A stretch of 64,000 bases of DNA from Streptomyces profundus (GTDB taxonomy: Bacteria; Actinomycetota; Actinomycetes; Streptomycetales; Streptomycetaceae), in NCBI RefSeq assembly GCF_020740535.1, contig NZ_CP082362.1, positions 930,001 to 994,000 of the forward strand, read 5' to 3'. The notes under the pieces were generated by a model that saw nothing but the letters and a program-made list of their open reading frames with translations, ran no database searches and was not told the DNA's origin. Both the position numbers and the translations under genes were made by a program. Of the stretch, positions 2,884 through 24,062 are shown in pieces; position 1 is the first letter of the stretch, and every line of letters begins with the position of its first letter.

Positions 2884-3043
2884 GGACAGACTCCAGGTGC
2901 GGAATGTGTGGGCAGGGGTCGGATCAGCGCTTACGCCCGCTAATGCACGAGGAACAGAATGTCCATGCGGGCCATTCTAGCCGCGCGCGGCAACGGGTTT
3001 TCGTCCGGCCGAGCGGCCGGGCACAGCGTCAGGACCGCCGCCG

Positions 3044-4444: not shown

Positions 4445-4544
4445 CCGAGCAGTTTCACCGCTCGGACCGTCAAAGCCCAAACCCCGCGTACAGCGGCCTA
4501 GATGAGGGGGGCGCCCGAGGGGCGCGCGCGGCGGTGGTGGTGGC

Positions 4545-5690
4545 TCACATCAGGGGCGTGAGGAAACGCCGCAGCGCCTCCTGGTAGCCGTCCGGATCGG
4601 CGTTCCACATCGCGGCGTGCTGCGCCTGGGCGACGGTGTGGAGGACGACGTTCCGCTCGTGCCGACCGGCGAGTTCGCGGGAGGCGGCGAACGGCGCGAT
4701 GGTGTCGTCGGGACCGTGCACCAGCAACATCGGCGGCGGTGTGCCCCGTTCGCCGGGCGGTGGCACCGGCGGCGGGCCGGCCGGGGCGCCGCGCTGGGCC
4801 GCGGCCACGGCCCAGGGCCTGAGCACGGCCGGCACGCCGCGCCGCACGGCCATGGCGCGCAGCGTGGCGGTGGGCCACAGCACCGGGGAGTCCAGCACAA
4901 GACCGGCGACACGCTGGTGCAGCGGCGAGTGGGTGGCGGTGTGCAGCGCCATGGTCGCGCCGGTGGACCAGCCGTAGAGCACCACCCGGCGCGCGCCGGC
5001 GCGCACGGCGAAGCGCAGCGCGGCCTCGGCGTCGCGCCACTCCCCCGCGCCGAGCCGGTACGCCCGTTCCGCGCGCCGGGGTGCGCCGGGATCGCCCCGG
5101 TAGCCGGGCAGCAGCACGGGGAAGCGGAGCTCCTGGAGGAAGGGCAGCACGTTCAACGGCAGTTCGCGGGTGGCGCCCAGGCCGTGCAGCGCGATGACCC
5201 AGGTGTCGCGGGGGCCCGGCACCAGCCAGGCCGGCAGCCGGACGGAGCCGTGCGGCAGTTCGACGTCGGTGTACTCGATGCCGAGCGCGGAGCGCGGGGT
5301 GCCGGTGTGCAGCTGCGGGGTGAGCCCCACGGAGCTGCCGGGCGGGAGCCGGCCGGGACCGACGCTGATCAGCTGCCGCACCACGGTGTCGGGGGTGCTG
5401 GCCACATCCAGCGGTGGTCCGATCACCGCGCTGCCCGAGCGGCCGGTGAGCCGGTAGGTGCCGGGCCGCAGCGCGTGGGCGGACCGGGTGAGGGTGAGGG
5501 TGTCGGCGGTGCTGGCGTGCACCGCGAACCGGATGCCGGCGAAGCCGGCCGGCCGGCCGCCCCTGGCCGCGCCCAGCGCCGTGCCGCTGGCCCAACGGCC
5601 CGCCAGGGCCGTGGCCAGGCCGGTACCGACCGCCAACACCGTGCTGGCGGCCACCGCCGCCGTGATCCGCCGCCGCATGGTCCCCAGCAT
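4545..5690 (-). CDS. Alpha/beta hydrolase, membrane-anchored or secreted
   Basis: The ~381-residue protein begins with a basic stretch and a hydrophobic segment (about residues 5-32), a signal peptide or anchor. The C-terminal half is an alpha/beta-hydrolase fold: nucleophile elbow GWSTG, acid in the GPDDTIAP segment, and a late His in AQHAAMW. An HGLG motif earlier forms the probable oxyanion hole. ATG at 5690 or 5678 are both possible; the latter has GGGGA just upstream. The long open frame beyond 5690 overlaps the aldolase gene and is a shadow. Substrate is unknown. Confidence 0.8.
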   Translation of the reverse strand: MLGTMRRRITAAVAASTVLAVGTGLATALAGRWASGTALGAARGGRPAGFAGIRFAVHASTADTLTLTRSAHALRPGTYRLTGRSGSAVIGPPLDVASTPDTVVRQLISVGPGRLPPGSSVGLTPQLHTGTPRSALGIEYTDVELPHGSVRLPAWLVPGPRDTWVIALHGLGATRELPLNVLPFLQELRFPVLLPGYRGDPGAPRRAERAYRLGAGEWRDAEAALRFAVRAGARRVVLYGWSTGATMALHTATHSPLHQRVAGLVLDSPVLWPTATLRAMAVRRGVPAVLRPWAVAAAQRGAPAGPPPVPPPGERGTPPPMLLVHGPDDTIAPFAASRELAGRHERNVVLHTVAQAQHAAMWNADPDGYQEALRRFLTPLM

Positions 5691-5752
5691 GGGCGCGGAG
5701 ACGGGCGACGGCCACCGCACCGCGCCGGAACGGGTGGGTCGCCCGGGAGGCG

Positions 5753-6526
5753 TCAGGTCCTGCCGGGGTTGCCGTAGTCGCGGAGGCGTTCGGCCACCTC
5801 GGCGAGTTGGTCCCGGGTGAGCAGGGTGGGCTCGCGCCCGGGTATGGCCGCAGCGGCCAGCCAGACCCGGCACATCCACTCCAGCTGCGCCGTGTGGTCC
5901 ATCGCCTGCCGCAGGTCGCGTCCGTGGACCAGGGTGCCGTGGTTGCGCAGCAGGCAGGCGCTGCGGTCGGCGAGCGCGGCCAGCGCCGCGTCCGCCAACT
6001 CGGGTGAGCCGTAGGTGGCGTAGTCGGCGACCCGGATCGGACCGCCCATGGCGGCGGCCATGTAGTGGATCAGCGGCACCTCGTCCACCAGCGTGGAGAC
6101 CGCGGTGGCGTGGGTGGCGTGGGTGTGCACCACGGCGCGGGCCCCGGTCGAGCGGTAGACCGCGAGGTGCAGCGGCAGTTCGCTGGTGGGTTCGAGGGCG
6201 CCGGCCAGCCGGCGGCCGTGGAGGTCGACGGCCAGCAGATCGGCCGGGCGGAGCCGGTCGTAGGGCACCCCGCTGGGGGTGACGAGGATCGCGTCCCCGA
6301 CGCGGACCGAGAGGTTGCCCGAGGTGCCGACGACCAGGCCGTCGGCCACCGTCTGCCGTGCGGCGGCCACCAACGCGCGCCAGGCGGCGCGCCAGGGGGC
6401 GGGGTGCCGGGCGGCGCCGGCCGGGAGAGCCGCCCGGGAACCTGCCCGACGGCCTGTGCGGAGACGTGTCCGACGACCTGTCCAAAAAAGGAGCGAAGCA
6501 ACAGCGTTACGCCGCCGTTCATTCAT
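5753..6526 (-). CDS. Class II aldolase/adducin family protein
   Basis: This is a ~257-residue protein of the L-fuculose-phosphate-aldolase/adducin family. GTSGNLSVR and the zinc ligands in VVHTHATH, plus a later His in RNHGTLV, mark the metal-binding active site. The first ~45 residues are basic and atypical, so the true start may be downstream of 6526; the family usually begins near APWRAAWRALV. It could be a sugar-phosphate aldolase or a dehydratase such as MtnB; the sequence does not decide. It is divergent from the phosphate transporter across a PHO-box-like region and 62 bases before the alpha/beta hydrolase gene. Confidence 0.85.
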   Translation of the reverse strand: MNERRRNAVASLLFWTGRRTRLRTGRRAGSRAALPAGAARHPAPWRAAWRALVAAARQTVADGLVVGTSGNLSVRVGDAILVTPSGVPYDRLRPADLLAVDLHGRRLAGALEPTSELPLHLAVYRSTGARAVVHTHATHATAVSTLVDEVPLIHYMAAAMGGPIRVADYATYGSPELADAALAALADRSACLLRNHGTLVHGRDLRQAMDHTAQLEWMCRVWLAAAAIPGREPTLLTRDQLAEVAERLRDYGNPGRT

Positions 6527-12447: not shown

Positions 12448-13044
12448 ATGACCCCCGCACAAGCAGACCATGCACGTGCCGTCGATAACGTGGAAATACC
12501 TGGAACAGTGGAAGTACCGGAAGGGCTTGGACTCGACACGCCGCGACTGTCCGACGGCGGATCCCTCTGGCGGATCGCGAAGGACTCCCGCGCACTTGAC
12601 CTGAACTCTTCGTACAGTTACCTACTGTGGTGCCGCGACTACGCGAGCACCTCTATCGTGGCCAGAGACACGTCGGGCGAGCCGGTCGGTTTCATCACGG
12701 GATATCTCCGCCCCGACGCCCCGACGACCCTGCTGATCTGGCAGGTCGCCGTCGACCACGCGCAGCGGGGACGCGGCCTCGCCGCCGCGATGCTGAACGC
12801 CCTCGTCCACCGGACGGGCGAGGAGCTGGGGGTGACCACCATCGAAACCACCGTCACACCGGACAACACCGCCTCCAACCGGCTGTTCGCCGCCTTCGCC
12901 GCACGGCACGGCGCCGATGTGCGCCGTGAGGTGCTCTTCGACACCGAGGTGTTCCCCGAGAGCGGCCACCAGCCCGAAGTGCTGTACCGGATCGGCCCCG
13001 TGGCCCTTCCCGCCGTCCCCGAAGTCGCCGCCACCGCGCGCTGA
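12448..13044 (+). CDS. ectA: L-2,4-diaminobutyrate N-gamma-acetyltransferase
   Basis: This is the second enzyme of ectoine synthesis: it acetylates diaminobutyrate using acetyl-CoA. The 198-residue protein shows the GNAT fold with the EctA-typical LWRIAKDSRALDLNSSYSYLLWCRDY segment and the acetyl-CoA loop in VAVDHAQRGRGLAAAML. The N-terminus is about 25 residues longer than in many EctA proteins. ATG at 12448 has no Shine-Dalgarno sequence, consistent with leaderless translation. It is first in ectABCD, with 37 bases to ectB. Confidence 0.96.
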   Translation: MTPAQADHARAVDNVEIPGTVEVPEGLGLDTPRLSDGGSLWRIAKDSRALDLNSSYSYLLWCRDYASTSIVARDTSGEPVGFITGYLRPDAPTTLLIWQVAVDHAQRGRGLAAAMLNALVHRTGEELGVTTIETTVTPDNTASNRLFAAFAARHGADVRREVLFDTEVFPESGHQPEVLYRIGPVALPAVPEVAATAR

Positions 13045-13081
13045 CCCGACGACCTCTCTTCGCGAAACCTGGAGATCCGCT

Positions 13082-14350
13082 GTGACCATCACCCAGCCCG
13101 ACCTGAGCATCTTCGAGACCCTGGAGTCCGAGGTGCGCAGCTACTGCCGCAACTGGCCGACCATCTTCGACCGCTCGCGGGGCAGCTACCTCTACGACGA
13201 GGACGGCCACACCTACCTCGACTTCTTCATGGGCGCCGGCTCCCTCAACTACGGCCACAACAACCCCGTACTGAAACGCGCCCTGATCGACTACCTGGAG
13301 CGCGACGGGATCACCCACGGTCTGGACATGTCCACCACCGCCAAGCGGGCGTTCCTGGAGACCTTCCGCGATGTGGTGCTGGTGCCCAGGGACATGGACC
13401 ACAAGGTGATGTTCCCCGGCCCGACCGGCGCCAACGCGGTGGAGGCCGCCCTCAAGCTGGCCCGCAAGGTCAAGGGCCGCGAGTCCATCGTCTCGTTCAC
13501 CAACGGGTTCCACGGCATGTCGCTCGGCGCGCTGGCCGTCACCGGCAACGCGTTCAAGCGGGCCGGCGCCGGCATCCCGCTGGTGCACGGCACGCCGATG
13601 CCGTTCGACGACTACCTGGACGGCCGGACGCCCGACTTCATCTGGTTCGAGCGGCTGCTGGAGGACGCGGGCTCGGGGCTCAACCAGCCGGCCGCCGTGA
13701 TCGTGGAGACGGTCCAGGGCGAGGGCGGCGTCAACGTGGCCAGGCCCGAGTGGCTGCGCGGCCTCGCCGACCTCTGCGAGCGCCACGACATGCTGCTGAT
13801 CGTCGACGACATCCAGATGGGCTGCGGCCGGACCGGCGCGTTCTTCTCGTTCGAGGACTCCGGGATCACCCCGGACATCATCACGGTCTCCAAGTCCATC
13901 AGCGGCTACGGCCTGCCGCTCTCCCTCACGCTGTTCCGGCCCGAGCTGGACGTGTGGGAGCCGGGCGAGCACAACGGGACCTTCCGCGGCAACAACCCCG
14001 CCTTCGTCACCGCGTCGGCCACGCTCAACACCTACTGGGCGGACGGGCAGATGGAGAAGCAGACCCTGAGCCGGGGCGAGCAGATCGAGACGGCGCTGCG
14101 CGCGCTGACCGTCGAGCACGCCCACGCCGGCGCCAGCTACCGGGGCCGTGGCCTGGTCTGGGGTCTCTCCTTCGAGGAGGCCGACCGCGCCCGCCGGGTC
14201 TGCCAGCGCGCCTTCGAACTGGGCATGTTGGTCGAGACCTCGGGTCCGCAGAGCGAGGTCGTGAAGCTGCTCCCCGCGCTGACCGCCACGCCCGAGGAGC
14301 TGGACGAGGGGCTGCGGGTACTGACCCGGGCCGTCCGGGAGACCGACTGA
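13082..14350 (+). CDS. ectB: Diaminobutyrate--2-oxoglutarate transaminase
   Basis: EctB is a PLP-dependent class III aminotransferase making L-2,4-diaminobutyrate from aspartate semialdehyde and glutamate. The 422-residue protein has the cofactor-binding region in PTGANAVEAALKLARK and the Schiff-base lysine in TVSKSISGYGLP. IVDDIQMGCGRTG carries the Asp that contacts the PLP ring. GTG at 13082 gives the usual EctB N-terminus (TITQPDLSIFETLES) and is preceded by GGAG; the upstream frame overlaps ectA and is not used. Confidence 0.97.
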   Translation: MTITQPDLSIFETLESEVRSYCRNWPTIFDRSRGSYLYDEDGHTYLDFFMGAGSLNYGHNNPVLKRALIDYLERDGITHGLDMSTTAKRAFLETFRDVVLVPRDMDHKVMFPGPTGANAVEAALKLARKVKGRESIVSFTNGFHGMSLGALAVTGNAFKRAGAGIPLVHGTPMPFDDYLDGRTPDFIWFERLLEDAGSGLNQPAAVIVETVQGEGGVNVARPEWLRGLADLCERHDMLLIVDDIQMGCGRTGAFFSFEDSGITPDIITVSKSISGYGLPLSLTLFRPELDVWEPGEHNGTFRGNNPAFVTASATLNTYWADGQMEKQTLSRGEQIETALRALTVEHAHAGASYRGRGLVWGLSFEEADRARRVCQRAFELGMLVETSGPQSEVVKLLPALTATPEELDEGLRVLTRAVRETD

Positions 14351-14455
14351 CACCCAGCCGAGCCACCCCTTCGGTCCGACAACAAAAGATGAGTTGGCAG
14401 AGCAGTAGACAGTGAAGTGCGCCTTGGCGTACGCATGGAGAGGAAACACACCGAC

Positions 14456-14851
14456 GTGATCGTCCGATCGCTCAGCGACATCGAGGGAACCGACCGGGAC
14501 GTGGAGTCAGCCTCCGGCACCTGGCGCAGCAAGCGCATCGTGCTCGCCAAGGAAGGCGTCGGCTTCTCGTTGCACGAGACCGTGCTCTACGCCGGTACCG
14601 AGACCTCGATGTGGTACGCCAACCACATCGAGGCGGTGTTCTGCGTCGAGGGTGAGGCCGAGCTCACCAACGACGAGACCGGTGAGAAGCATCTGATCAA
14701 GCCCGGAACGATGTACCTGCTGAACGGACACGAGAAGCACACCGTGCGTCCCAGGACGGACTTTCGCGTGATGTGCGTCTTCAATCCCCCGGTCACCGGG
14801 CGGGAGGACCACGACGAGAACGGCGTCTACCCGCTGCTGACCGAGGCGTGA
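14456..14851 (+). CDS. ectC: L-ectoine synthase
   Basis: EctC cyclises N-gamma-acetyl-diaminobutyrate to ectoine. The 131-residue cupin-type protein starts at GTG 14456 ([15 protein letters not shown]), the standard EctC N-terminus, behind GGAGAGGAA. Metal- and substrate-binding cupin positions lie in [18 protein letters not shown] and [12 protein letters not shown]. Length equals the family norm. The 105-base gap after ectB is larger than the others but has no terminator-like hairpin. Confidence 0.97.
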
Positions 14852-14870
14852 CCGAGAAGAAGGGAGCAAA

Positions 14871-15770
14871 ATGACCACCGCACCCGAACGCACCGCCGAC
14901 CTCTACCCCACCCGCGGCACCACCGAGGTGGCCACCCCCCGGCAGGACCCGGTGGTGTGGTCCGAGCCGGGCGCGGAGGGCCCGTTCACCGGCGAGCAGC
15001 TGGGGGGCTTCGAACGGGACGGCTTCGCCACCATCGATCAGTTGATCACCGACGACGAGGTCGCGCGCTACCGGTCCGAACTGGATCGGCTGGTCACCGA
15101 CCCGCAGGTGCGCGCGGACGCGCGTTCCATCGTGGAACCGGCTTCCGGTGAGACCAGGTCGGTGTTCGAGGTGCACAAGATCAGCCAGGTCTTCGCCGAA
15201 CTCGTCCGCGACCCACGGGTGGTGGGCCGCGCCCGACAGATCCTGGGCTCGGACGTCTATGTCCACCAGAGCCGGATCAACGTCAAGCCGGGCTTCGGCG
15301 CCACCGGGTTCTACTGGCACTCGGACTTCGAGACCTGGCACGCGGAGGACGGGCTGCCCCGGATGCGGACGGTCTCGGTCTCCATCGCGCTCACCGAGAA
15401 CCTGGACACCAACGGCGGGTTGATGATCATGCCGGGTTCGCATCTGACGTTCCTGGGCTGCGCGGGTGAGACGCCCAGGGACAACTACAAGAAGTCCCTC
15501 CAGATGCAGGACGCGGGCACCCCATCGGACGAGGCGCTGACCGGTTTCGCCGATCGGCACGGCATCAGGCTGTTCACCGGCAGGGCCGGTTCGGCCACCT
15601 GGTTCGACTGCAACTGCATGCACGGCTCGGGCGACAACATCACCCCGTACCCGCGCAGCAACGTGTTCATCGTGTTCAACAGTGTGGAGAACGCGGCGGT
15701 CGAGCCGTTCGCCGCGCCCGTTCCCCGACCGGAGTTCATCGGCGCCAGGGACTTCACCCCCGTCCGCTGA
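14871..15770 (+). CDS. ectD: Ectoine hydroxylase
   Basis: This is a non-heme Fe(II)/2-oxoglutarate dioxygenase that makes 5-hydroxyectoine. The 299-residue protein carries the iron-binding HxD in FYWHSDFETWHAEDGLPRM and the distal His in CMHGSGDN, followed by the conserved Arg near YPRSN that binds 2-oxoglutarate. ATG at 14871 follows AAGAAGGGAG. It is last in the ect operon, so the cell can make both ectoine and hydroxyectoine. A strong terminator follows. Confidence 0.97.
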   Translation: MTTAPERTADLYPTRGTTEVATPRQDPVVWSEPGAEGPFTGEQLGGFERDGFATIDQLITDDEVARYRSELDRLVTDPQVRADARSIVEPASGETRSVFEVHKISQVFAELVRDPRVVGRARQILGSDVYVHQSRINVKPGFGATGFYWHSDFETWHAEDGLPRMRTVSVSIALTENLDTNGGLMIMPGSHLTFLGCAGETPRDNYKKSLQMQDAGTPSDEALTGFADRHGIRLFTGRAGSATWFDCNCMHGSGDNITPYPRSNVFIVFNSVENAAVEPFAAPVPRPEFIGARDFTPVR

Positions 15771-15890: not shown

Positions 15891-16379
15891 TCAGCCCCGG
15901 CCGTCCAGCAGTGCGCGGTTGATCTCCCGGGCAGGTGCGGCGAGTTCGGGGTGTTCGACGACGTGGACGCCGGCGGCGGTCAGCCGCGCCGCGCCCGCGC
16001 GTTCGACGAAGAGCGGTGGCTCGCGCCAGGCGTACACCACCTGGGGGATGCCGGCGGCGATGATCAGCTCGGCGCAGGTCGTGGGGCGGGAGGCGCGTTC
16101 CCCGCAGGGTTCGAGCGAGCTGTAGAGCGTGGCGGTGCGCAGCCTGGGATCGGCCGGGGGCAGCTTGCGCAGCGCGGCCTCCTCGGCGTGCTCCTTCGGA
16201 TCGGCCTCCCGGGAGTACCCGGTGGCGAGCGGCTGCCCGTCGACGCCGACGATCACGGCGCCGACGGCGAAGGCGGTGGCGCTGGGCGGGCAGCGGCCGG
16301 CGAGCGCGATGGCCTCCCGCAGCCAGTGCGACCGTTCGCTCGCGCCGGGCTGTGCACGGCGTTCCGGGCGTTCCGGCAT
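15891..16379 (-). CDS. RibD-type cytidine/deoxycytidylate deaminase domain protein
   Basis: The 162-residue zinc deaminase resembles the N-terminal half of RibD. The zinc and proton-shuttle motif HAEEAAL (His, Glu) and the cysteine ligands in LEPCGERASRPTTCAELI are both present. It lies two bases after the RibD-like reductase gene, so the two halves of a RibD-type enzyme are separate genes here. It is last in the STM4015-STM4011 operon. Either it works in riboflavin-type pyrimidine chemistry or on the unknown product of this operon. Dedicated riboflavin biosynthesis is less likely because no rib synthase genes are nearby. Confidence 0.85.
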   Translation of the reverse strand: MPERPERRAQPGASERSHWLREAIALAGRCPPSATAFAVGAVIVGVDGQPLATGYSREADPKEHAEEAALRKLPPADPRLRTATLYSSLEPCGERASRPTTCAELIIAAGIPQVVYAWREPPLFVERAGAARLTAAGVHVVEHPELAAPAREINRALLDGRG

Positions 16380-16381
16380 CG

Positions 16382-17101
16382 TCAGTCCCTTCCGTCCTGG
16401 GCATCCGGGAGGTAGCGCAACAGGACATGATCGCCCATGGGCCTGGCCTCGGCCAACCGCATCGGCCGCGCGGGGCCCTGGGGGAACGCGGCGGGCCTGG
16501 GGAAGCGGGCGGCGCCCGTGGTGCCCAGCAGGAACGGGGCGATGACCAGCTGGAGTTCGTCGACCAGATCGGCGGCCAGGAAGGCGCCGTGGATCGCGCC
16601 GCCGCCCTCCACCATGAGCCGGCGCACCCCGCGCCGCGCCAGATCGGCCACGATCTCGCGCGGGTGGAGCGGATCCCCCGCGGGGATCACCGTGGCCGCT
16701 TCGCCGAGGCGGGCCGCCGTGGCGGCGGCGCGGGCGGGCGGGCAGTACACCAGCGGGGGGCGCTCGCCCTCGGTGAAGATCCGGGCGGCGGGGTCGAGCC
16801 GGCCGCCGGTGGTGAGGACGACGCGGAGCGGGTCGGCCGGCCGGCCGGCGGCGACCCGCGCGGCGCGCCGTTCGGCGGCCCGCACCAGCAGCCGGGGGTT
16901 GTCGGCGCGCACGGTGCCGGCGCCGACCAGGATCGCGTCGGACGCGGCCCGTTCGGCGTCCACCCGGTCCAGATCGGCGGCGTGGGAGAGGATCAGCCGC
17001 CGGTCCGTGGCGTCGTCGATGAAGCCGTCGAGGGAGGCCGCGCAGGAGAGCAGCACCCAGGGCCGGGACGGTCCCGCCTCGCGCGGGTCAGGGCGTTCCA
17101 T
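16382..17101 (-). CDS. RibD C-terminal-type pyrimidine reductase (dihydrofolate reductase family)
   Basis: The ~239-residue NADPH-dependent reductase matches the RibD C-terminal family. It has the opening strand SCAASLDGFIDD, the DAILVGAGTVRADNPRLLVR cofactor motif, and VRRLMVEGGGAIHGAFLAADLVDEL near the end. ATG at 17101 is used; GTG at 17110 (VSAMERP) would overlap the upstream radical SAM stop and is also plausible. Physical coupling to STM4011 upstream and the deaminase downstream implies a shared pathway. The natural substrate is unknown. Confidence 0.85.
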   Translation of the reverse strand: MERPDPREAGPSRPWVLLSCAASLDGFIDDATDRRLILSHAADLDRVDAERAASDAILVGAGTVRADNPRLLVRAAERRAARVAAGRPADPLRVVLTTGGRLDPAARIFTEGERPPLVYCPPARAAATAARLGEAATVIPAGDPLHPREIVADLARRGVRRLMVEGGGAIHGAFLAADLVDELQLVIAPFLLGTTGAARFPRPAAFPQGPARPMRLAEARPMGDHVLLRYLPDAQDGRD

Positions 17102-17106
17102 CGCAC

Positions 17107-18006
17107 TCACGGTAGTCGCCGGATCGCGAGCGGGTCGGGGACGGGGGGCGGCGCGGCGCGGGCGGCGGGCGTGGGGACGCGTTCCAGCACCCCGCCGGCG
17201 AACGCGTCGTACAGCGGCAGGGTCTCCAGATGGACATAGCCGATGTGGCAGTCGCAGACGGCCAGCGGGCAGGCCCTGGGCGCGAGGGCGGCGCGGTAGG
17301 AGCCGTCGTAGAGGTTGCCGAGCTCGGCGGGGACGAAGTGGCAGCGGCGGACCGTGCCTTCGCCGTCCACGGAGATCACGGTGTCGCCGGTGCGGCAGGC
17401 GCGGCCGGCGGAGCGGTGCGGGTTGCGGCTGAACGGGAAGAGCGGATCGAGCGCCGTCCACGCGTCGGCCTCGTCGTCGGCGTAGCGGTGGCCCTCGGCC
17501 GCGTTCACCCAGAGGTAGACCGGCGGCGGCAGTTCGGCGCGCAACCGGCGTGCGGGGGCGAGGTGTTCGGGGAGGCCGACGACGCCGACGCTGAACCGGA
17601 TGCCCAGCTCGGCCAGGCGGCGGGTCTTGGTGAGGAAGCGGTCGTAGGGCGTCTGTCCCGGGTGGTAGGTGCACCACAGGGCGAGGGTGTCGGGGTCGGC
17701 GTCGGCCAGCCAGTCGGTGCGGCAGCTGAGGTTGGTCTGGATGGCGACCCGCGCCACATGCGGCTGGTGCGAGAGGTCGACGAGGGCGCGGCGGTACCAG
17801 GATCGGGTCAGGCCCTCGCCCCAGGGGGTGAAGAGGAGCGAGAGGCGTTCCTCGGGCTCGGTGGCGACCCAGCTGGTGAACCGCTCCAGGGCGGCCCGGT
17901 CCGTGCGGAGCTGCTCGGCGCTGTCCCGCCGCTTGGCGAACGGGCAGTAGGGGCAGTCGAGATCGCAGGAGGCGAGCGGGCCCCGGTAGAGGATGGTCAG
18001 GTGCAC
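17107..18006 (-). CDS. STM4011 family radical SAM protein
   Basis: The 299-residue radical SAM enzyme has CxxxCxxC at residues 14-21 (C14, C18, C21). The GTG start at 18006 lies four bases after the STM4012 stop. Its C-terminal ~90 residues hold more cysteines (RRCHF and CPLAVCDCHIGY), resembling the auxiliary Fe-S region of SPASM-type enzymes. That suggests additional clusters and a peptide- or sugar-type substrate. The family is named after a Salmonella locus; I know of no established reaction. It sits inside an operon with STM4012, STM4013, STM4014 and STM4015 homologues. Confidence 0.9.
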   Translation of the reverse strand: MHLTILYRGPLASCDLDCPYCPFAKRRDSAEQLRTDRAALERFTSWVATEPEERLSLLFTPWGEGLTRSWYRRALVDLSHQPHVARVAIQTNLSCRTDWLADADPDTLALWCTYHPGQTPYDRFLTKTRRLAELGIRFSVGVVGLPEHLAPARRLRAELPPPVYLWVNAAEGHRYADDEADAWTALDPLFPFSRNPHRSAGRACRTGDTVISVDGEGTVRRCHFVPAELGNLYDGSYRAALAPRACPLAVCDCHIGYVHLETLPLYDAFAGGVLERVPTPAARAAPPPVPDPLAIRRLP

Positions 18007-18010
18007 GGCG

Positions 18011-19369
18011 TCACCTCGGCTCGTGGGCGGCCATCGCCGCGCGCACTTCGGGCGAGAAGAAGACGGGGCCGACGGCGTCCGAGTGGGCCAGCCCTTCGGG
18101 CGAGAGGCGCAGCAGCCCCGGGGCGTCGCCGGCCAGCCAGCCCAGGGCGGCCACCGCCGCCAGCTCGGCGGGGAAGTCCTGGTGCGGGTCGGAGCCGAAC
18201 CGGGCGCGGTAGTCGTCGACGGCGAGTCCTTCGGCCTGGAGCAGGGACTGGAGCAGATGGCGGCGTCTGGCCTCGCCGGCGTCGACGGCGCGGCCGTGCT
18301 CGGCGCGGCTGAAGTCCTCGGTGGCGGTGTAGGCGTCGATGATGCCTCGGATCTCCCGCATGTCGACCGCGTAGTCGAAGGAGTAGTGCAGCGTGGAGGT
18401 GTAGGAGCGGGCGCCGCAGCCGAGACCGATCATGCCGTCGGTCTGGCAGGCGTAGTCGTCGGGGCCCTGGGCGGGCGCGTCGACGCGACGGAACATCCGC
18501 ATCGACGCCTGTTGGTAGCCGTGGGCCAGCAGATGGTCCCGGCCCTCGCAGTAACGGCGCAGCCGGGTCTCGTCCCAGGCGAGGTCGGCGGCGAGCCGGT
18601 CGGGGTGGCGGCCGAGGCCGGTCAACGGGCGGACATAGAGCGGGTAGAGGTAGATCTCCTCGGGCCGCCAGGCCAGGGCGGCGTCCAGGGAGTGGCGCCA
18701 ACTGGCCGCCGTCTGACCGTCGATGCCGTAGATCAGGTCGATGTTCAGGACGGGGATGCGGGCGTCGCGGATCCGGCCGATGGCCGACTCGACGTCGGCC
18801 CGCCGCTGTGGGCGGACGGCGGCCCGCGCCTCGCTGTCGACAAAGCTCTGCACGCCGAGGCTGAGCCGGGTGGCGCCGCGCTCGGCGAGGACGGCGAGCC
18901 GGTCGGCCGTCGCGGTGGCCGGGGACGCCTCGACCGACAGCGGGATCGTCCGCAGATCGGCGCCCATGCGCTGTTCGGCGATGTCGCAGAGCCGGGACAG
19001 TTCGTCGGCCGTCAGGAAGGTGGGGGTGCCGCCGCCGAACGCGGCGTTGGAGAACCGGAGCGGCTCGCCGTCGCCGAGCGCCTCGCGCACCGCGACGGCC
19101 TGCCGCTCCAGGGCGTCGAGGTAGCGGCCGGTCAGCCCGTCGGGCGCGCCGACCCGGGTGAACAGGTTGCAGAAGCCGCAGCGCACCTCGCAGAACGGTA
19201 TGTGCGCGTACAGCGAGAGCGCCCGCCTGGACTCCCCGGCCCACAGGTCGGCGAGCCGGGGCCGGTCGGGGAGCGCCCGGTAGGCGGTCTTGTGCGGGTA
19301 GGCGTACACGTAGTGCTGATAGGGGCGTTGCCGGGGGAGCTGGTGGGTGGGCGCGGCGGCGACGGTCAT
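18011..19369 (-). CDS. STM4012 family radical SAM protein (HemW-like)
   Basis: The ~452-residue protein resembles HemW/oxygen-independent coproporphyrinogen oxidase relatives. CxxxCxxC is at C60, C64 and C67 (HIPFCEVRCGFC) and the GGGTPT motif follows near residue 115. Conserved HemW-like blocks continue as LSLGVQSF and IDLIYGI. ATG at 19369 overlaps the STM4013 stop as ATGA, indicating translational coupling. The extra C-terminal domain (after about 330) is like HemW. It is probably not a heme biosynthesis enzyme here. Reaction unknown. Confidence 0.92.
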   Translation of the reverse strand: MTVAAAPTHQLPRQRPYQHYVYAYPHKTAYRALPDRPRLADLWAGESRRALSLYAHIPFCEVRCGFCNLFTRVGAPDGLTGRYLDALERQAVAVREALGDGEPLRFSNAAFGGGTPTFLTADELSRLCDIAEQRMGADLRTIPLSVEASPATATADRLAVLAERGATRLSLGVQSFVDSEARAAVRPQRRADVESAIGRIRDARIPVLNIDLIYGIDGQTAASWRHSLDAALAWRPEEIYLYPLYVRPLTGLGRHPDRLAADLAWDETRLRRYCEGRDHLLAHGYQQASMRMFRRVDAPAQGPDDYACQTDGMIGLGCGARSYTSTLHYSFDYAVDMREIRGIIDAYTATEDFSRAEHGRAVDAGEARRRHLLQSLLQAEGLAVDDYRARFGSDPHQDFPAELAAVAALGWLAGDAPGLLRLSPEGLAHSDAVGPVFFSPEVRAAMAAHEPR

Positions 19370-20250
19370 GCGGGTGGCTCCAGGAAGAAGTGGCGGTAGG
19401 GGACGGTCCACACCGAGGGGTGGCCGAGGCGGTGCCCGGTGTAGCCGTCGTCCCCGTAGGCGGTGCCGTGGTCGGAGCAGACGATGGCGAAGCAGCGGCG
19501 ACGGGAGCGCATCGCGTCGAAGAGGCGGCCCACCTGGCGGTCGACGTACTCCAGGGCCGCCGCGTGGCTGGCCAGGCTGTCGCCCGCCTCCCGGGTGGCG
19601 CCCGGCAGGTGGAACCAGTTGGGCTGATGCAGCGCCGAGACGTTGAGGAAGAGGAACAGCCGCCGCTCGGCCGGCAGTTCGGCGACGATCCGCTCGACGC
19701 GGGCGATCTGCGCCTCGAAGGAGGTGGGGGAAGCGACGGAGAACTCCGGCTCCCAGTGGCTCTCCCGGAACAGTCCGGGCAGGACGCTGCCGAGGGCACC
19801 CCGCTTGTTGAAGAAGCCGACGCCGCCGACACAGACGGTGTGGTAGCCCCGGTCGGCGAGCGCCGTCACCAGGTCGGGGGCGTCGAAGACGAAGGTGCGG
19901 CCGGCGGTGGTCTCGCTGCCGCCGAACCTGGCGGCGAAGAGGCGCGCGTGGCGTCCGGGAGCGGCCGGCGTGGGCAGGAAGCCGGCGAAGATGGCCTGGT
20001 GCGAGGCGTAGGTGAAGTTGCCGGGCGCGTGCCGCTCCTCCCAGACGCCGCCCGGCAGATGGGCGGCCAGGTGCGGCAGGCGCCCCTCGGCGGCCAACTC
20101 CCGGGCCACGTCGTACCGGAGCGTGTCGAGCGTGAGCAGCAGCAGGTCGTCACGGCCGACCACCTCGTTCATGTCCGGATCATCAGCGGGATGAACGGGA
20201 TGAACGGGATCAACGGGGTCAGCGAGACGAGCGGGATCAACGGGCCGCAT
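19366..20250 (-). CDS. STM4013/SEN3800 family hydrolase (alkaline phosphatase superfamily)
   Basis: This ~294-residue metal-dependent hydrolase is related to sulfatases and phosphatases. Metal-binding DTLRYD appears near the N-terminus (LLLTLDTLRYD) and SDHG in VCSDHGTAYGDD near the C-terminus. A FTYASHQAIFAGF segment occupies the place of the catalytic Ser/Thr/Cys. ATG at 20250 has GAAGGAG five bases upstream and overlaps the STM4014 stop by 14 bases; the alternative 20172 lacks a ribosome site. The resulting N-terminal extension is a DPVHPV-type repeat. No formylglycine C/S-x-P-x-R motif is seen, so phosphatase or phosphodiesterase chemistry is possible. Confidence 0.9.
   Translation of the reverse strand: MRPVDPARLADPVDPVHPVHPADDPDMNEVVGRDDLLLLTLDTLRYDVARELAAEGRLPHLAAHLPGGVWEERHAPGNFTYASHQAIFAGFLPTPAAPGRHARLFAARFGGSETTAGRTFVFDAPDLVTALADRGYHTVCVGGVGFFNKRGALGSVLPGLFRESHWEPEFSVASPTSFEAQIARVERIVAELPAERRLFLFLNVSALHQPNWFHLPGATREAGDSLASHAAALEYVDRQVGRLFDAMRSRRRCFAIVCSDHGTAYGDDGYTGHRLGHPSVWTVPYRHFFLEPPA
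20191..20217. repeat. 9-bp tandem repeats at STM4013 N-terminus
   Basis: Three in-frame 9-bp units (atgaacggg, atgaacggg, atcaacggg on the plus strand) encode the HPV/DPV repeat at the STM4013 N-terminus; another copy at 20236-20244 overlaps the STM4014 stop codon. Confidence 0.85.
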
Positions 20251-21370
20251 GGTCGCTCCTTCGTCGGTCCTGGAACGGGGCGCCCCGGTGGACGGCGGCG
20301 ACCTGGGCGGCGTAGGTGTCCAACGTCTCGGCCCCACTGCCCGGCAGGCCCGTCAGCCCGGGCAGCAGATCGCCGAAGGCGTTGACCTCGCCGACGGCGA
20401 ACCGCCGCCAGCCGGCGGCCGGCAGCAGGTCGACGCCGACGCAGAGCGTGCCGGGGAAGCAGGCGGCGGCCCGCTCGCAGATCTCCAGGGCCCGCGCCCA
20501 CGCGGCGCCGGCCCGTGCGACGACCTCCGTCATATCCCCTCGGGAGCCGCCCAGATGGAGGTTGGTGAGCGGGTGCCGGCTGGTGCGGACCACGGCGTGG
20601 GTGGCCCGGCCGGCGACCACCACCAGGCGCAGATCGGCCGATCCGCCCCGGAGGGCGGCCTTGGGCAGCCAGCGCTCGACGTGCAGCCCTTCGGGCGCCA
20701 GGGCGTCGACGATGCCGGCGATGGTCCGCTCGTCGACGAGCCGGCGCATCCGCAGGGAGTTGTGGAGCCGCCCCTCGGGGGTGACCTCGATCGGGGTGGT
20801 GGCCTTGAGCCGGCCGGATCGGCTGGTCTCCAGGGCCAGCACGCCGGATCCGGACGAGCCATGGGCGGGTTTGACGAAGACCCGCGCGAAGCCGGGCTCC
20901 CCGGTGATCGTCCTGATGTCGTCCCAGCCGCGCACCGGCCGGGCCAGCCCCGAGGTGGGGGACGGCGGGACGGGCACGCCGGCCGCCGCCAGCCTCGCGT
21001 GGCAGCGCCGCTTGTCGAACAGGACGGCCAGCTCGTCCGGATCGTCGAGGCGCCGCCCGCCGCGCAGCGAGCGGACGGCGGCCAGGAAGCGGGCGTACCA
21101 GAGCGCGGAGCCCTCCACCCGCGTCGGGTCGGCGGCGCCCCGCAGCGCGCGGTCGACCTCGGCGTTCTCGCCCGGCGAGTCCAGCCGCACGATCTCGTGG
21201 TCGGCGAAGGCGTGCCCGCCCTCGCGCAGGACGTCCTGCCAGGGGACGACGCGGGGCGGCGCGGCGCCGGCGGCCCCGGCCGCCGCCAGGAACCGCGTCA
21301 CCCGCCGGTTCTCCGGGTTGCCGACGACCGCCCACGCGCGCGGCTGGGGCGCCGGCCGGGCGCTACTCAC
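20237..21370 (-). CDS. STM4014 family ATP-grasp-like protein
   Basis: The ~377-residue protein looks like an ATP-grasp ligase. A nucleotide-binding hairpin DKRRCHARLAAAGVPVPPS leads to the Gly-rich loop VFVKPAHGSSGSGV. A Mg-binding segment near the C-terminus (AVGEVNAFGDLLPGL) supplies Glu and Asn. GTG at 21370 overlaps the STM4015 stop by eight bases. ATP-grasp enzymes join a carboxylate to an amine or thiol. In this operon it could build a peptide or conjugate bond on the product handled by the radical SAM enzymes. Substrate unknown. Confidence 0.88.
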   Translation of the reverse strand: MSSARPAPQPRAWAVVGNPENRRVTRFLAAAGAAGAAPPRVVPWQDVLREGGHAFADHEIVRLDSPGENAEVDRALRGAADPTRVEGSALWYARFLAAVRSLRGGRRLDDPDELAVLFDKRRCHARLAAAGVPVPPSPTSGLARPVRGWDDIRTITGEPGFARVFVKPAHGSSGSGVLALETSRSGRLKATTPIEVTPEGRLHNSLRMRRLVDERTIAGIVDALAPEGLHVERWLPKAALRGGSADLRLVVVAGRATHAVVRTSRHPLTNLHLGGSRGDMTEVVARAGAAWARALEICERAAACFPGTLCVGVDLLPAAGWRRFAVGEVNAFGDLLPGLTGLPGSGAETLDTYAAQVAAVHRGAPFQDRRRSDHAAR

Positions 21371-22340
21371 CCACCGCGACGAAGCGCCACTGGTTGCCGT
21401 CGGCATCCTCGTCCTCGTCGAATTCGGCGCCGCCATGGTCGAGATCGAGCTGGACACCCGCCGGCTCCAGTGTCTCGCGCAGCCGGGTGAGGAGCTTGCC
21501 GCTGATGTAGTTGTGCGACAGGTCGAGCGAGCTGAGATGGGTCAGCGGCTGGCCGGTGAGCAGCGCGGACGCCCCCTCGTCGGTGAGCACACCCATCGAC
21601 AGGTCCAGCGAGTCGAGCCTGGCCACCACGGGCGCGGCGGCCACGGCGGCACAGATCGCGTCCTGCAACACGCTGTTGCACAGGCTCAGATGCCTCAACG
21701 CCGGAAGCCGGACGCCGGAGAAGATCGGCGCGAGATCGTCGATGTCGGCGTCGCCGCCGTACTCCGGGGTGCCGAGCCACAGATCGAGGTGGACCAGGGC
21801 GGGCAGGTCGCTGGCGGCGACGCCGCGCACCGCCGCGGCCGGCATCCCGCCCGTCTCGATGACGAGCCGGCGGAGCGCCTCGTGCCGGATCGGGGAGAAC
21901 GACAGGTCCGTACCGCCGCGCACGCCGAACTCCTCCAGCGCGGGGAACGCCTCCAGCACATCCGTGACCCGGCCCTGGTAGATCCAGGAGATCTCGGCCT
22001 CCTCCATCACGATGTCGCCGAGGAACACGGCGCGCAGCGCGGTGAGTCGGTCGCGCACCCCGACCAGGGCCTCGATCACGCGTTCAGGGCCGTTCTCGTA
22101 CGCCTCGCCCCAGACGCCGACGATCAGCGCCCGCACCTGGCTGAGGTCGACGGTGTCCGCGAACCTGGCGAACCTGGCCGTCCACTCCTCGTCGTCGTCG
22201 CCGTACGGCTCGACCGCGATCCGCCAGGCCACCGCGTCGGCGGCGGGCAGTTGGGCCACGTCCTTCGGCTCCCGGGGTTCGGCCGGGAAGTCGAAGGCGG
22301 GCAGGCCGTGAAAGTCCTGCAAGTGGTTCCCGATGGTCAT
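21363..22340 (-). CDS. STM4015 family leucine-rich repeat protein
   Basis: The 325-residue protein begins MTIGNHLQDFHGLPAF and is rich in leucine-rich repeats in its second half (LVHLDLWLG, LRHLSLCNS, LDSLDLSMG, LSSLDLSHN). LRR domains bind proteins, suggesting a scaffold, immunity or partner-recognition role rather than catalysis. ATG at 22340 has GAGGAA about ten bases upstream. It is the first gene of the minus-strand operon; its promoter is in the 169-base gap shared with the divergent 22510 gene. Confidence 0.9.
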   Translation of the reverse strand: MTIGNHLQDFHGLPAFDFPAEPREPKDVAQLPAADAVAWRIAVEPYGDDDEEWTARFARFADTVDLSQVRALIVGVWGEAYENGPERVIEALVGVRDRLTALRAVFLGDIVMEEAEISWIYQGRVTDVLEAFPALEEFGVRGGTDLSFSPIRHEALRRLVIETGGMPAAAVRGVAASDLPALVHLDLWLGTPEYGGDADIDDLAPIFSGVRLPALRHLSLCNSVLQDAICAAVAAAPVVARLDSLDLSMGVLTDEGASALLTGQPLTHLSSLDLSHNYISGKLLTRLRETLEPAGVQLDLDHGGAEFDEDEDADGNQWRFVAVGE

Positions 22341-22509
22341 GCTGCGCCCGTTCCTCGTCGTCGGTCGTCGGACAGTACGGGAGTTCTACCAAGTGCCACT
22401 GACAGCGCCGTCGGTGACCCCGTGTCCGGCGGCCGGGGACGGTCGATTGTCAGTGCCTCCGCCTACTGTCCGTGGCGTGGCACATCGGGTGCCGCGGGGA
22501 GGGAGATCC

Positions 22510-22836
22510 ATGTATCGACAGGGAGATGTGCTGATCGTGCCGTTGGCGGCGGAGGCGGTGCCGGCCGACGCGCTGGAGGCGGAGTCGGAGCCGAGGGACG
22601 GGCGCGGCCGGCTGGTGTTGGCCCTCGGCGAGGTGACGGGCCACGCGCACGCGGTGGTGGGCCCCGGGCGGTTGATCCGGGAGGGCGGCGCCTTCGGGCC
22701 GGCGCTGCTCCATGTGCCGGACGGCGCCCGGGTGGTGCACGAGGAGCACGCGGTCATCCCGCTGCCCCGGGGCTGGTACCGGGTGGTGCGGCAGCGCGAG
22801 TACGTGCCGGGCTCGGTCCGCGTGGTCGCGGACTGA
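22510..22836 (+). CDS. Small conserved protein preceding a DUF6745-like gene
   Basis: This is a 108-residue soluble protein of unknown function. It opens MYRQGDVLIVPL and contains the His-rich segment GEVTGHAHAV and the downstream HEEHAVIPLPRGWYRVVRQREY. The several histidines could bind a metal. The start is firm because GGGAGGGAG lies just upstream of ATG 22510. It diverges from the STM4015 operon and is followed 134 bases later by the DUF6745-like gene. I recall this pair occurring together in other actinomycetes. Confidence 0.8.
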   Translation: MYRQGDVLIVPLAAEAVPADALEAESEPRDGRGRLVLALGEVTGHAHAVVGPGRLIREGGAFGPALLHVPDGARVVHEEHAVIPLPRGWYRVVRQREYVPGSVRVVAD

Positions 22837-22970: not shown

Positions 22971-24062
22971 ATGGGACACGCGGTCATGCGACACGGGGAT
23001 CACGGCGACCTGCTGGGCGGGGACGCGTCGCGGGGACGGCCAGGCGCCGAGGCCGGGGGCGAGCCGACGGGCTGGCGCTCGGTGGCGGCGGCCACCGGGC
23101 CCGGGGCGCGGGACGCCGCCGAGGCGGGGGTCAGGCTCGCGTATCGGCGGGCGGGGCTGGCGGAGCCCGAGCGGCTGCGGTGGGTGGATTCGCCGCTGGC
23201 GGCGGTCCGGCTGCTGCGGGAGGAGGCCGGGCGCACCGGCGCCAGCGTGCGGCGCGCCCTCCGCGACGAGCCCCTTGCGGCCCAACGTGAGCTGATGCAC
23301 GACCGGTTGGGCCCGACGGGCTGGAGCACGCACTGGCGGGCCACGGGCGCCGATCTGTGGGAGACGACGGCCCCGCTGGTGGAGCGGATCAGGTCGGCGG
23401 TGATCGCGGCGTCGGCGCCCCGGCCCAGGGACGAGGCGGCGATCCGCGTCCTGCTGTTGGACGCGGTGCTCGGCCAGCACGAGGCGGCCTGGCTGAGCGC
23501 GTTGGACCCGGGCCCGGGCTCCGGGCTCGACGGTCTCGCGGTGGTGGCCAACTCGGCGGGCTGGTGGTGGCCCTACGAGAACGTGGTGGTGCTCAGCGAG
23601 CGGCCCGTCGAGCTGTGGCGGGACGAGGCCGGCCGGCTGGACCGCTCGGACGGGCCGGCGCTGGCGTACCCGGACGGCTTCGCGCTGCACGCCTGGCGCG
23701 GGCTGCCGGTGCCGGGCGAGTTCCTCAAGCGGCTGGACACGTTGACTCCCGCGCTGATCCGGGAGGAGGAGAACGCGGAGCTGCGCCGTGTGATGCTCGA
23801 ACACTACGGCTACGACCGCTATTTGACGGAGTCGGGCGCCGAGCCGGTCCACCGCGACGAGACGGGGGTCCTCTGGCGCATAGCGCTGCCGGGCGACGAG
23901 GACGTGGCGATGGTCGAGGTGGTCAACTCCACGCCGGAGCCCGACGGCACCAACCGCACCTACTGGCTGCGGGTGCCCCCGCGCACGAGGACCGCGCGCG
24001 AGGGCGTGGCCTGGACGTTCGGCCTGGAGGCGGATACCTATGCGCCGCTGCGGCAGACCTGA
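22971..24062 (+). CDS. DUF6745-like protein of unknown function
   Basis: The ~363-residue protein has an N-terminal Ala/Arg-rich region and a conserved C-terminal half. Landmarks are WWWPYENVVVLSERP, RSDGPALAYPDGFALHAWRGLPVP, MLEHYGYDRYLTESGAEPVHRDETG and the tail TFGLEADTYAP. This pattern fits DUF6745. No catalytic motif or signal peptide is seen. ATG at 22971 has GGAGG ten bases upstream. The long upstream open frame (back to 20316) is a shadow of the STM4014/STM4015 genes. It is paired with the small 22510 gene. Confidence 0.8.
   Translation: MGHAVMRHGDHGDLLGGDASRGRPGAEAGGEPTGWRSVAAATGPGARDAAEAGVRLAYRRAGLAEPERLRWVDSPLAAVRLLREEAGRTGASVRRALRDEPLAAQRELMHDRLGPTGWSTHWRATGADLWETTAPLVERIRSAVIAASAPRPRDEAAIRVLLLDAVLGQHEAAWLSALDPGPGSGLDGLAVVANSAGWWWPYENVVVLSERPVELWRDEAGRLDRSDGPALAYPDGFALHAWRGLPVPGEFLKRLDTLTPALIREEENAELRRVMLEHYGYDRYLTESGAEPVHRDETGVLWRIALPGDEDVAMVEVVNSTPEPDGTNRTYWLRVPPRTRTAREGVAWTFGLEADTYAPLRQT

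Follow-up and report, generated by a model that had tools for sequence, protein, structure and literature searches.

The analysed window is a 64,000-nucleotide stretch of the Streptomyces profundus genome (NCBI RefSeq assembly GCF_020740535.1, contig NZ_CP082362.1, positions 930,001 to 994,000; a single-contig genome of 7.65 Mb), and it contains an operon of seven tightly packed minus-strand genes, all open and free of inner stops. Five of these genes belong to families named after Salmonella loci (STM4015, STM4014, STM4013, STM4012, and STM4011) and encode a leucine-rich repeat (LRR) protein, an ATP-grasp ligase, a hydrolase, and two radical S-adenosylmethionine (SAM) enzymes; a RibD-type reductase and a deaminase follow. 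Our analysis singles out the C-terminal peptide of STM4015 as the key site for inquiry, and points to its terminal glutamate as the probable target of the STM4014 ligase. The genes and features are as follows.

21363-22340, minus strand: STM4015 family LRR protein, 325 amino acids (NF038076, 372.7 bits against a cut-off of 275).
21366-21389, minus strand: conserved STM4015 tail, the last eight residues WRFVAVGE, with the invariant glutamate at the end.
20237-21370, minus strand: STM4014 family ATP-grasp ligase with a GTG start (NF038074, 434.6 bits against a cut-off of 175).
19366-20250, minus strand: STM4013/SEN3800 hydrolase of the alkaline phosphatase/sulfatase superfamily (NF038075, 423.7 bits against a cut-off of 250; PF00884, E 2.5e-7).
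18011-19369, minus strand: STM4012 radical SAM enzyme, HemN/NocN-like (NF006067, 634.3 bits against a cut-off of 380; PF04055).
17107-18006, minus strand: STM4011 radical SAM enzyme with a SPASM-like C-terminal cysteine cluster (NF038073, 405.7 bits against a cut-off of 200).
16382-17101, minus strand: RibD_C-type reductase (PF01872, E 1.3e-44).
15891-16379, minus strand: deaminase (dCMP_cyt_deam_1) paired with the reductase (PF00383, E 4.1e-17).
22341-22509: divergent intergenic region of 169 bp between STM4015 and the 108-amino-acid protein, presumed from the coordinates to be a shared promoter region.
22510-22836, plus strand: 108-amino-acid protein, divergent from STM4015, with the motif RQGDVL...GExTGHxH...HEEH and invariant histidines.
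About 22971-24062 (start codon uncertain), plus strand: DUF6745 protein, the divergent partner (PF20530, E 4.9e-115).

Within the operon, STM4015 and STM4014 overlap by 8 nucleotides (nt), STM4014 and STM4013 by 14 nt, and STM4013 and STM4012 by 4 nt; the gaps are 4 nt between STM4012 and STM4011, 5 nt between STM4011 and the reductase gene, and 2 nt between the reductase and deaminase genes. Start codons were assigned from overlaps and from comparison with relatives. All five STM families score far above their NCBIfam cut-offs; coordinates, open frames, and family scores confirm the seven-gene operon that an original prediction, made from the window alone, had described. Its gene list was correct for the seven genes and overlooked the 108-amino-acid protein and DUF6745 on the plus strand. 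The closest STM4011 homologues among the matches listed are Streptomyces proteins.

The conserved unit is STM4015-4014-4013-4012-4011, joined in most actinobacterial relatives by the 108-amino-acid protein and DUF6745. The order of the five genes is identical in annotated records of Streptomyces (L014 and L015), Deinococcus (L017, L109, and L110), Methylobacterium (L018), Paenibacillus (L019), Salmonella (L020), and E. coli (L113 and L114); because it is kept across such distant records, the five-gene core is not a chance association, a conclusion that does not extend to the RibD pair. The named relatives are the best 80 of 578 loci, all actinobacterial, and in 74 of them all five genes were matched within the fetched stretch. 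Co-occurrence of the core genes is near-strict: among 150 Streptomyces genomes, STM4011 is found in 72, STM4015 in 72, and STM4014 in 69. The cluster is present in 154 of 5426 complete E. coli genomes. In the viral contigs searched no relative was confirmed; when phage records were searched by tblastn with STM4015, five partial matches turned up, all of them in Salmonella and E. coli records. The next gene after STM4011 in the Salmonella and E. coli loci (L020, L113, L114, and L115) encodes a Cof-type HAD hydrolase, and the cluster there has typA on one side and ompL or a DeoR regulator on the other.

The STM4015 protein (mostly 280-330 amino acids) is modelled as repeat-like helix and strand. 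AlphaFold scores for the window protein reach 92-99 across most of the LRR-body blocks and fall to about 60 over residues 301-325, and the tail is accordingly flexible in the model. All 338 intact STM4015 sequences examined, from Streptomyces, Paenibacillus, Deinococcus, E. coli, and Lachnospiraceae, end in glutamate. This set comprises 104 copies from the loci, 120 listed Paenibacillus-type homologues, and 114 of the 120 listed E. coli-type homologues. The 104 locus copies all carry the glutamate within an octapeptide such as WRYVAVGE, and all 120 homologues listed for the Paenibacillus protein (best 120) end in TE. Among the best 120 listed for the E. coli protein, 115 end in glutamate and the other five are fragments or a fusion; these five (P0263, P0266, P0267, P0273, and P0296), together with a Glu-ended fragment (P0309), were dropped before the count of 114 of 114 was made.

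The tail varies from WRYVALGE in Deinococcus and YRSIAVSE in Methylobacterium to WRYPSLTE in Paenibacillus, YMNAMYTE in Salmonella, and YMNPMFTE in E. coli, with a consensus of [W/Y]xxxxx[T/G/S/A]E in most STM4015 proteins. Across the 338 sequences the penultimate residue is T, G, A, or S with few exceptions, and positions -8 to -6 include an aromatic residue in every one; the 15 residues preceding the tail are on average 39-48% acidic, depending on the set. Within the loci this linker varies in both sequence and length, and most tail positions are conserved. No cysteine is found among the positions at least 95% conserved in 101 STM4015 sequences. One invariant residue at the very end of a C-terminal extension is the pattern to be expected of a modified tail. 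STM4014 (Ala in 31 of 84), STM4013 (Ala in 42 of 88), and STM4011 (Arg in 24 of 92), which served as controls, have no conserved last residue.

The overlap of the STM4015 gene with the start of STM4014 was considered as a cause of the conserved glutamate and rejected. Among 103 plus-strand STM4015 copies with a next gene, for which start codons were placed by homology, the gap is at least 5 nt in 61 and the next gene is another STM4015 in 19; the glutamate codon is GAG in 76 copies and GAA in 27. Because gaps are frequent, both codons are used, and distant stray copies also end in glutamate, the overlap does not account for the residue. Two further observations concern the family itself. A WGR domain, apparently N-terminal, occurs in eight metagenome homologues that keep the Glu tail (P0275, P0290, P0310, P0317, P0329, P0338, P0349, and P0350). 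Streptomyces sedi carries four tandem STM4015 copies (L029, about 2400-6507), each with the Glu tail; a second genome (G543, contig C1) also has four copies with the same tails, so it is perhaps of the same species.

Copies of STM4015 located outside the operon suggest a link between the terminal residue and the ligase. In 392 Streptomyces genomes STM4015 is found in 195 and STM4014 in 189, all of the latter inside the former (genome lists matched by eye). The six genomes with STM4015 only include one (G422) with a truncated STM4014 match; since this match ends early on its contig, the genome was left out and five were counted as ligase-less. The STM4015 proteins of these five all lack the terminal glutamate, ending instead in ..SVGPLTY (G420), ..RYVSIAV (G461), ..CVEGLP (G485), ..CVGPVSY (G687), and ..FVADGRDF (G742); the tail of G461 is otherwise intact, with the last residue alone changed. 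In ligase-positive genomes, 15 of the 20 fetched extra-operon copies are Glu-ended, some of them megabases from the operon (for example in G446 and G497). The association of the Glu tail with the ligase gives a Fisher p of 0.005, with kinship ignored. The absence of the glutamate where the ligase is absent agrees with the prediction that STM4014 acts on this residue, and is no proof of it.

The 20 plus five stray copies consist of 16 from a first set, in which every match located apart from the operon was taken, plus nine from a second set of 15 genomes chosen from the 195 positive for STM4015. Five matches outside the operon in this second set were left out: those in G710 (contig C201, stopping at profile position 277 of 290) and G752 (contig C366, partial), and those in G729, G630, and G739, which reach position 290. 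For G710, contig C281 was taken to carry the operon, and the copies on C270 and C79 were counted as stray. Two of the 20 (G513 and G455) lie less than 10 kb from the operon on the opposite strand. In one further genome (G700, contig C12, 264344-265159) the STM4014 match is weak (E 4.8e-45), perhaps that of a decaying gene; its STM4015, although in a shorter frame, retains SE at the end.

The best Protein Data Bank (PDB) matches of the STM4014 profile are to LysX (1uc8, 1uc9, and 3vpd), and the best structural matches of its model are to ArgX-LysW, LysX, and RimK; STM4014 has the fold and conserved residues of the RimK-family ATP-grasp enzymes. By analogy with these enzymes, STM4014 is proposed to be a C-terminal-Glu ligase of the LysX/RimK type. 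In Embleya sp. NBC_00888 (L111, 4640-6775) STM4014 and STM4013 share one reading frame in an apparently natural fusion, which suggests that the two proteins act together.

STM4012 matches HemN (1olt, 2.5e-54) and NocN (9p2u, 1.8e-31; a radical SAM methyltransferase, as named in its PDB entry) in profile searches of the PDB, contains the CX3CX2C motif in 95 of 99 sequences, and has a weak HemN_C match (PF06969) below the cut-off of that family. The 'STM4012 family' label is also borne by genes without the other four families nearby, as in Rhizobium (L021, 9944-11296, adjoining a methyltransferase and a pseudoazurin) and on a plasmid of Streptomyces SAT1 (L112, 6944-8326). STM4011 has CX3CX2C and a C-terminal CX4CXC in all of 96 sequences; its invariant cysteines in nine sequences are C14, C18, and C21, followed by C204, C222, C246, C251, and C253. 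It thus combines the CX3CX2C motif with the SPASM-type auxiliary cysteines of radical SAM enzymes that mature ribosomally synthesized and post-translationally modified peptides (RiPPs), and it matches SkfB (6efn, E 7e-4) best over its C-terminal part. STM4013 carries the conserved motifs of the alkaline phosphatase superfamily (D[ST]LR, FT[YW], and DHGT in 86 of 86 sequences), and its PDB relatives are NPP and sulfatases. We take these motifs to supply the metal ligands and the nucleophile, as in the superfamily at large.

The divergently transcribed pair is the usual companion of the core in actinobacteria. The 108-amino-acid protein and DUF6745 are both present in 65 of the 72 named relatives that have STM4015 and more than 2.5 kb upstream; a close DUF6745 is encoded in 57 of the 150 Streptomyces genomes, and all 57 also have STM4011, one of them (G529) as a mere remnant. 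The 108-amino-acid protein has no Pfam match, and PDB profile searches with either protein gave nothing convincing. In PHROGs the former falls into phrog_27831 and DUF6745 is also matched, the families being without assigned function. Relatives of both proteins lie within about 1.4 kb of each other in Microcystis phage LMM01 (NC_008562.1, 154042-155447), so the pair can exist without the cluster.

Taken together, these data make it reasonably probable that STM4015 is a substrate or carrier, that STM4014 ligates an amino compound to its terminal glutamate, and that the radical SAM enzymes and the hydrolase tailor the result. The invariant Glu tail, the flexibility of the model, the ligase type, the near-strict co-occurrence, and the absence of the glutamate from the five ligase-less copies are computed; from them we infer the ligation, the order of the steps, what the radical SAM and phosphatase-like enzymes do, and a product that may be kept on the protein or released. 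STM4015 would present a folded LRR domain, a flexible acidic linker, and the conserved C-terminal octapeptide. STM4014 would activate the terminal glutamate as an acyl phosphate and join an amino compound to it, a step with precedents in LysX and ArgX acting on LysW and in RimK acting on ribosomal protein S6. STM4012 and STM4011 would then remodel either the tail or the group attached to it, and STM4013 might trim, hydrolyse, or transfer a charged group of the phospho or sulfo type. One enzyme set could serve several LRR proteins, including those encoded at a distance. A more far-reaching version, in which LRR proteins are C-terminal carriers on which a RimK/LysX-type ligase loads the glutamate and the radical SAM pair builds an unusual residue or cofactor, in trans across a scattered LRR family, is put forward tentatively.

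Several results weigh against ligation at the STM4015 tail. The 338 STM4015 sequences are related, so their number is not a count of independent cases. Within the loci the 108-amino-acid protein ends in Asp in 71 of 71 copies (the residue being kept in Deinococcus and Methylobacterium as well), the last residue of DUF6745 is Thr in 67 of 70, and that of STM4012 is Lys in 77 of 95; because these proteins conserve their last residues too, C-terminal conservation alone is no proof. In ligase-positive genomes, five of the 20 stray copies do not end in glutamate, and since the copies without it show few kinds of tail, chiefly ..VGP[LV][TS]Y and ..FVADGRDF, the Fisher test makes them look more independent than they are. 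The LysX recognition motif GSWGR is found in none of 85 STM4014 sequences, and the scores of the protein for the LysX and RimK families fall well short of their cut-offs (26.9 bits for rimK_fam, where 143.4 is required). Its top Foldseek hit is the graspetide ligase PsnB, and DcsG, glutathione synthetase, PurK, and D-Ala ligases match its model within a few Z units. Finally, the 108-amino-acid protein and DUF6745 are absent from the enterobacterial and Paenibacillus records, and ligation at the tail leaves both unexplained.

The PsnB match, which was to a structure that includes the PsnB precursor, raises the alternative of a RiPP or graspetide type of maturation, with the tail as a core peptide on an LRR leader, STM4014 forming a macrolactam or ester, the radical SAM enzymes introducing crosslinks, and a short peptide perhaps being cut off. 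The resemblance of the C-terminal part of STM4011 to the peptide maturation enzyme SkfB is in keeping with this, as is the aromatic residue at -8 to -6. PsnB is not among the best 50 VIA-align matches of the STM4014 model, a result that does not exclude a likeness to it. Against such maturation, in none of three sequence sets does the tail contain a conserved internal Asp or Glu with a Lys, Ser, or Thr partner, the terminal residue alone being invariant, and no recurrent protease or exporter gene adjoins the cluster in six annotated plasmid records, although the Paenibacillus record has efflux genes upstream; we regard this alternative as rather unlikely. A small molecule might instead be made from free metabolites, with STM4015 as a scaffold or regulator and its C-terminus as a docking peptide. 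Many ATP-grasp ligases use free small molecules, LRR proteins are commonly interaction modules, and D-Ala ligases, glutathione synthetase, and PurK share the STM4014 fold. A docking peptide would have no obvious need for exactly the same terminal residue in all 338 sequences from several phyla, however, nor does this explanation sit well with the missing glutamate in five stray copies of ligase-less genomes or with C-terminal-Glu ligases as the nearest structures to STM4014; we judge it unlikely. A module against phages or stress, with LRR proteins that would sense a trigger and be armed by modification, could account for the patchy distribution (154 of 5426 E. coli and 72 of 150 Streptomyces genomes), the plasmid copies, the several LRR copies of some genomes, and the phage relatives of the 108-amino-acid protein and DUF6745. 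PADLOC, however, gave no match for seven of the nine proteins and two weak partial ones, for STM4012 and the deaminase, which do not amount to membership of a known defence system, and a role of this kind seems very unlikely.

The original prediction had read all seven genes as one pathway to a modified nucleotide-, pterin-, or peptide-type product, with the RibD pair as early enzymes. The tight packing here and in L022 is what such a pathway would show, but the reductase gene lies less than 1 kb from STM4011 in only one of the 69 named loci whose downstream sequence exceeds 3 kb, namely L022, the closest STM4011 match. In S. zhaozhouensis (L026) and S. sedi (L029) the pair is found further downstream, separated from the cluster by about 5 kb that holds other open frames and followed by ectoine-type genes, and the reductase was not found in the remaining loci of the 80. 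The reductase occurs in 75 of the 150 Streptomyces genomes, usually at about 50% identity, and together with STM4011 in 31 (36 expected by chance; Fisher p 0.14), of which three have STM4011 merely in part (G410, G460, and G529). It is within 10 kb of STM4011 in two of the 31 (G000 and G431); in 13 the two genes share a contig at a distance of about 180 kb or more, and in 16 they lie on different contigs. In each of the 19 best non-self Streptomyces loci a deaminase match adjoins the reductase (one match being short), so the two form a common Streptomyces pair; the annotations of the plasmid, Salmonella, and E. coli records show no such pair close to the cluster. The comparison across genomes on which the prediction itself was staked thus found the pair unlinked, without the stable linkage to the cluster that a riboflavin-type pathway implies, and on these grounds its membership was rejected. 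The RibD pair looks like an unrelated neighbour, beside the core only in a small Streptomyces branch. A nucleotide or pterin product, which rested on the pair, is left unsupported, and a pathway of seven genes is refuted in general and extremely improbable; a clade-specific add-on, and co-transcription with the core in this one clade, are possible. The peptide-type option is the part of the product proposal that fits the tail evidence. Convergent with the operon end, at window positions 12448-15770 on the plus strand, are ectoine/hydroxyectoine genes that we take, from their sequences, to be ectA-, ectB-, ectC-, and ectD-like; the RibD pair of L022, L026, and L029 likewise has ectD- and ectB-like frames on its flanks.

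That the five families have no known function, as the prediction stated, holds for the open-licence PubMed Central papers, in which none was found. Two of these papers name STM4013 and STM4015, once each and without a function, whereas SEN3799-3801, DUF6745, and the terms STM4011, STM4012, and STM4015 family were found in none. Searches for ATP-grasp enzymes together with radical SAM, LRR, or amidoligase proteins brought up no paper on the operon, those for carrier proteins yielded general background, and PMC4431377 and PMC8939145 do not mention LRR or leucine-rich proteins. Five widespread families named after Salmonella loci therefore gain one testable hypothesis, the modification of a Glu-ended LRR tail, and dropping the RibD genes avoids a false start in nucleotide chemistry.

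Among known systems, LysW-LysX and ArgW-ArgX come closest, in pairing a RimK-type ATP-grasp ligase with a partner whose conserved C-terminal motif ends in an invariant glutamate, and in supplying the nearest structure and the nearest PDB sequence match of STM4014. STM4015 shares the invariant C-terminal Glu of the LysW type, and its role as an acceptor is presumed from this; in contrast to LysW, a zinc protein ending at Glu54, the putative carrier is an LRR protein without conserved cysteines, and it has neither the EDWGE tail nor the form of a small Zn-binding protein. STM4014 likewise lacks the GSWGR motif by which LysX recognises EDWGE, and the place of the Arg/Lys pathway enzymes is taken by a phosphatase-like hydrolase and a pair of radical SAM enzymes. 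RimK differs in its partner, ribosomal protein S6 (RpsF), whereas STM4014 falls below the RimK cut-off and is encoded in an operon with radical SAM enzymes and a hydrolase. Since STM4015 is not LysW, and STM4014 is neither LysX nor RimK by motif or score, our claim is limited to a pair that works like those systems.

The pearlin/3-thiaglutamate pathway also performs chemistry on a group at the C-terminus of a ribosomal scaffold, according to PMC9016710 and PMC9303977; it employs a tRNA-dependent ligase and a 50-residue scaffold peptide, in place of the ATP-grasp ligase and LRR protein found here. Graspetide enzymes such as PsnB resemble STM4014 in being ATP-grasp ligases that act on a gene-encoded peptide region, and SPASM radical SAM enzymes are reported near some ATP-grasp loci (PMC8939145); the STM4015 tail differs in having no conserved residue pair for a lactam or lactone, and the proposed substrate is a large LRR protein. 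STM4012 resembles HemN and NocN in its profile matches and weak HemN_C domain, and differs in having a family of its own (NF006067). If the proposed ligation is correct, LysW-type carrier chemistry would be extended to a new carrier fold and joined to radical SAM chemistry; if LRR proteins are carriers in the wider sense, they would define a new class of protein-tethered biosynthesis or post-translational modification, ranging from Enterobacteriaceae and Lachnospiraceae to Streptomyces and Deinococcus. The system is thus best described as a putative carrier- or tail-directed ligation of a known kind, with a chance that it represents a new class.

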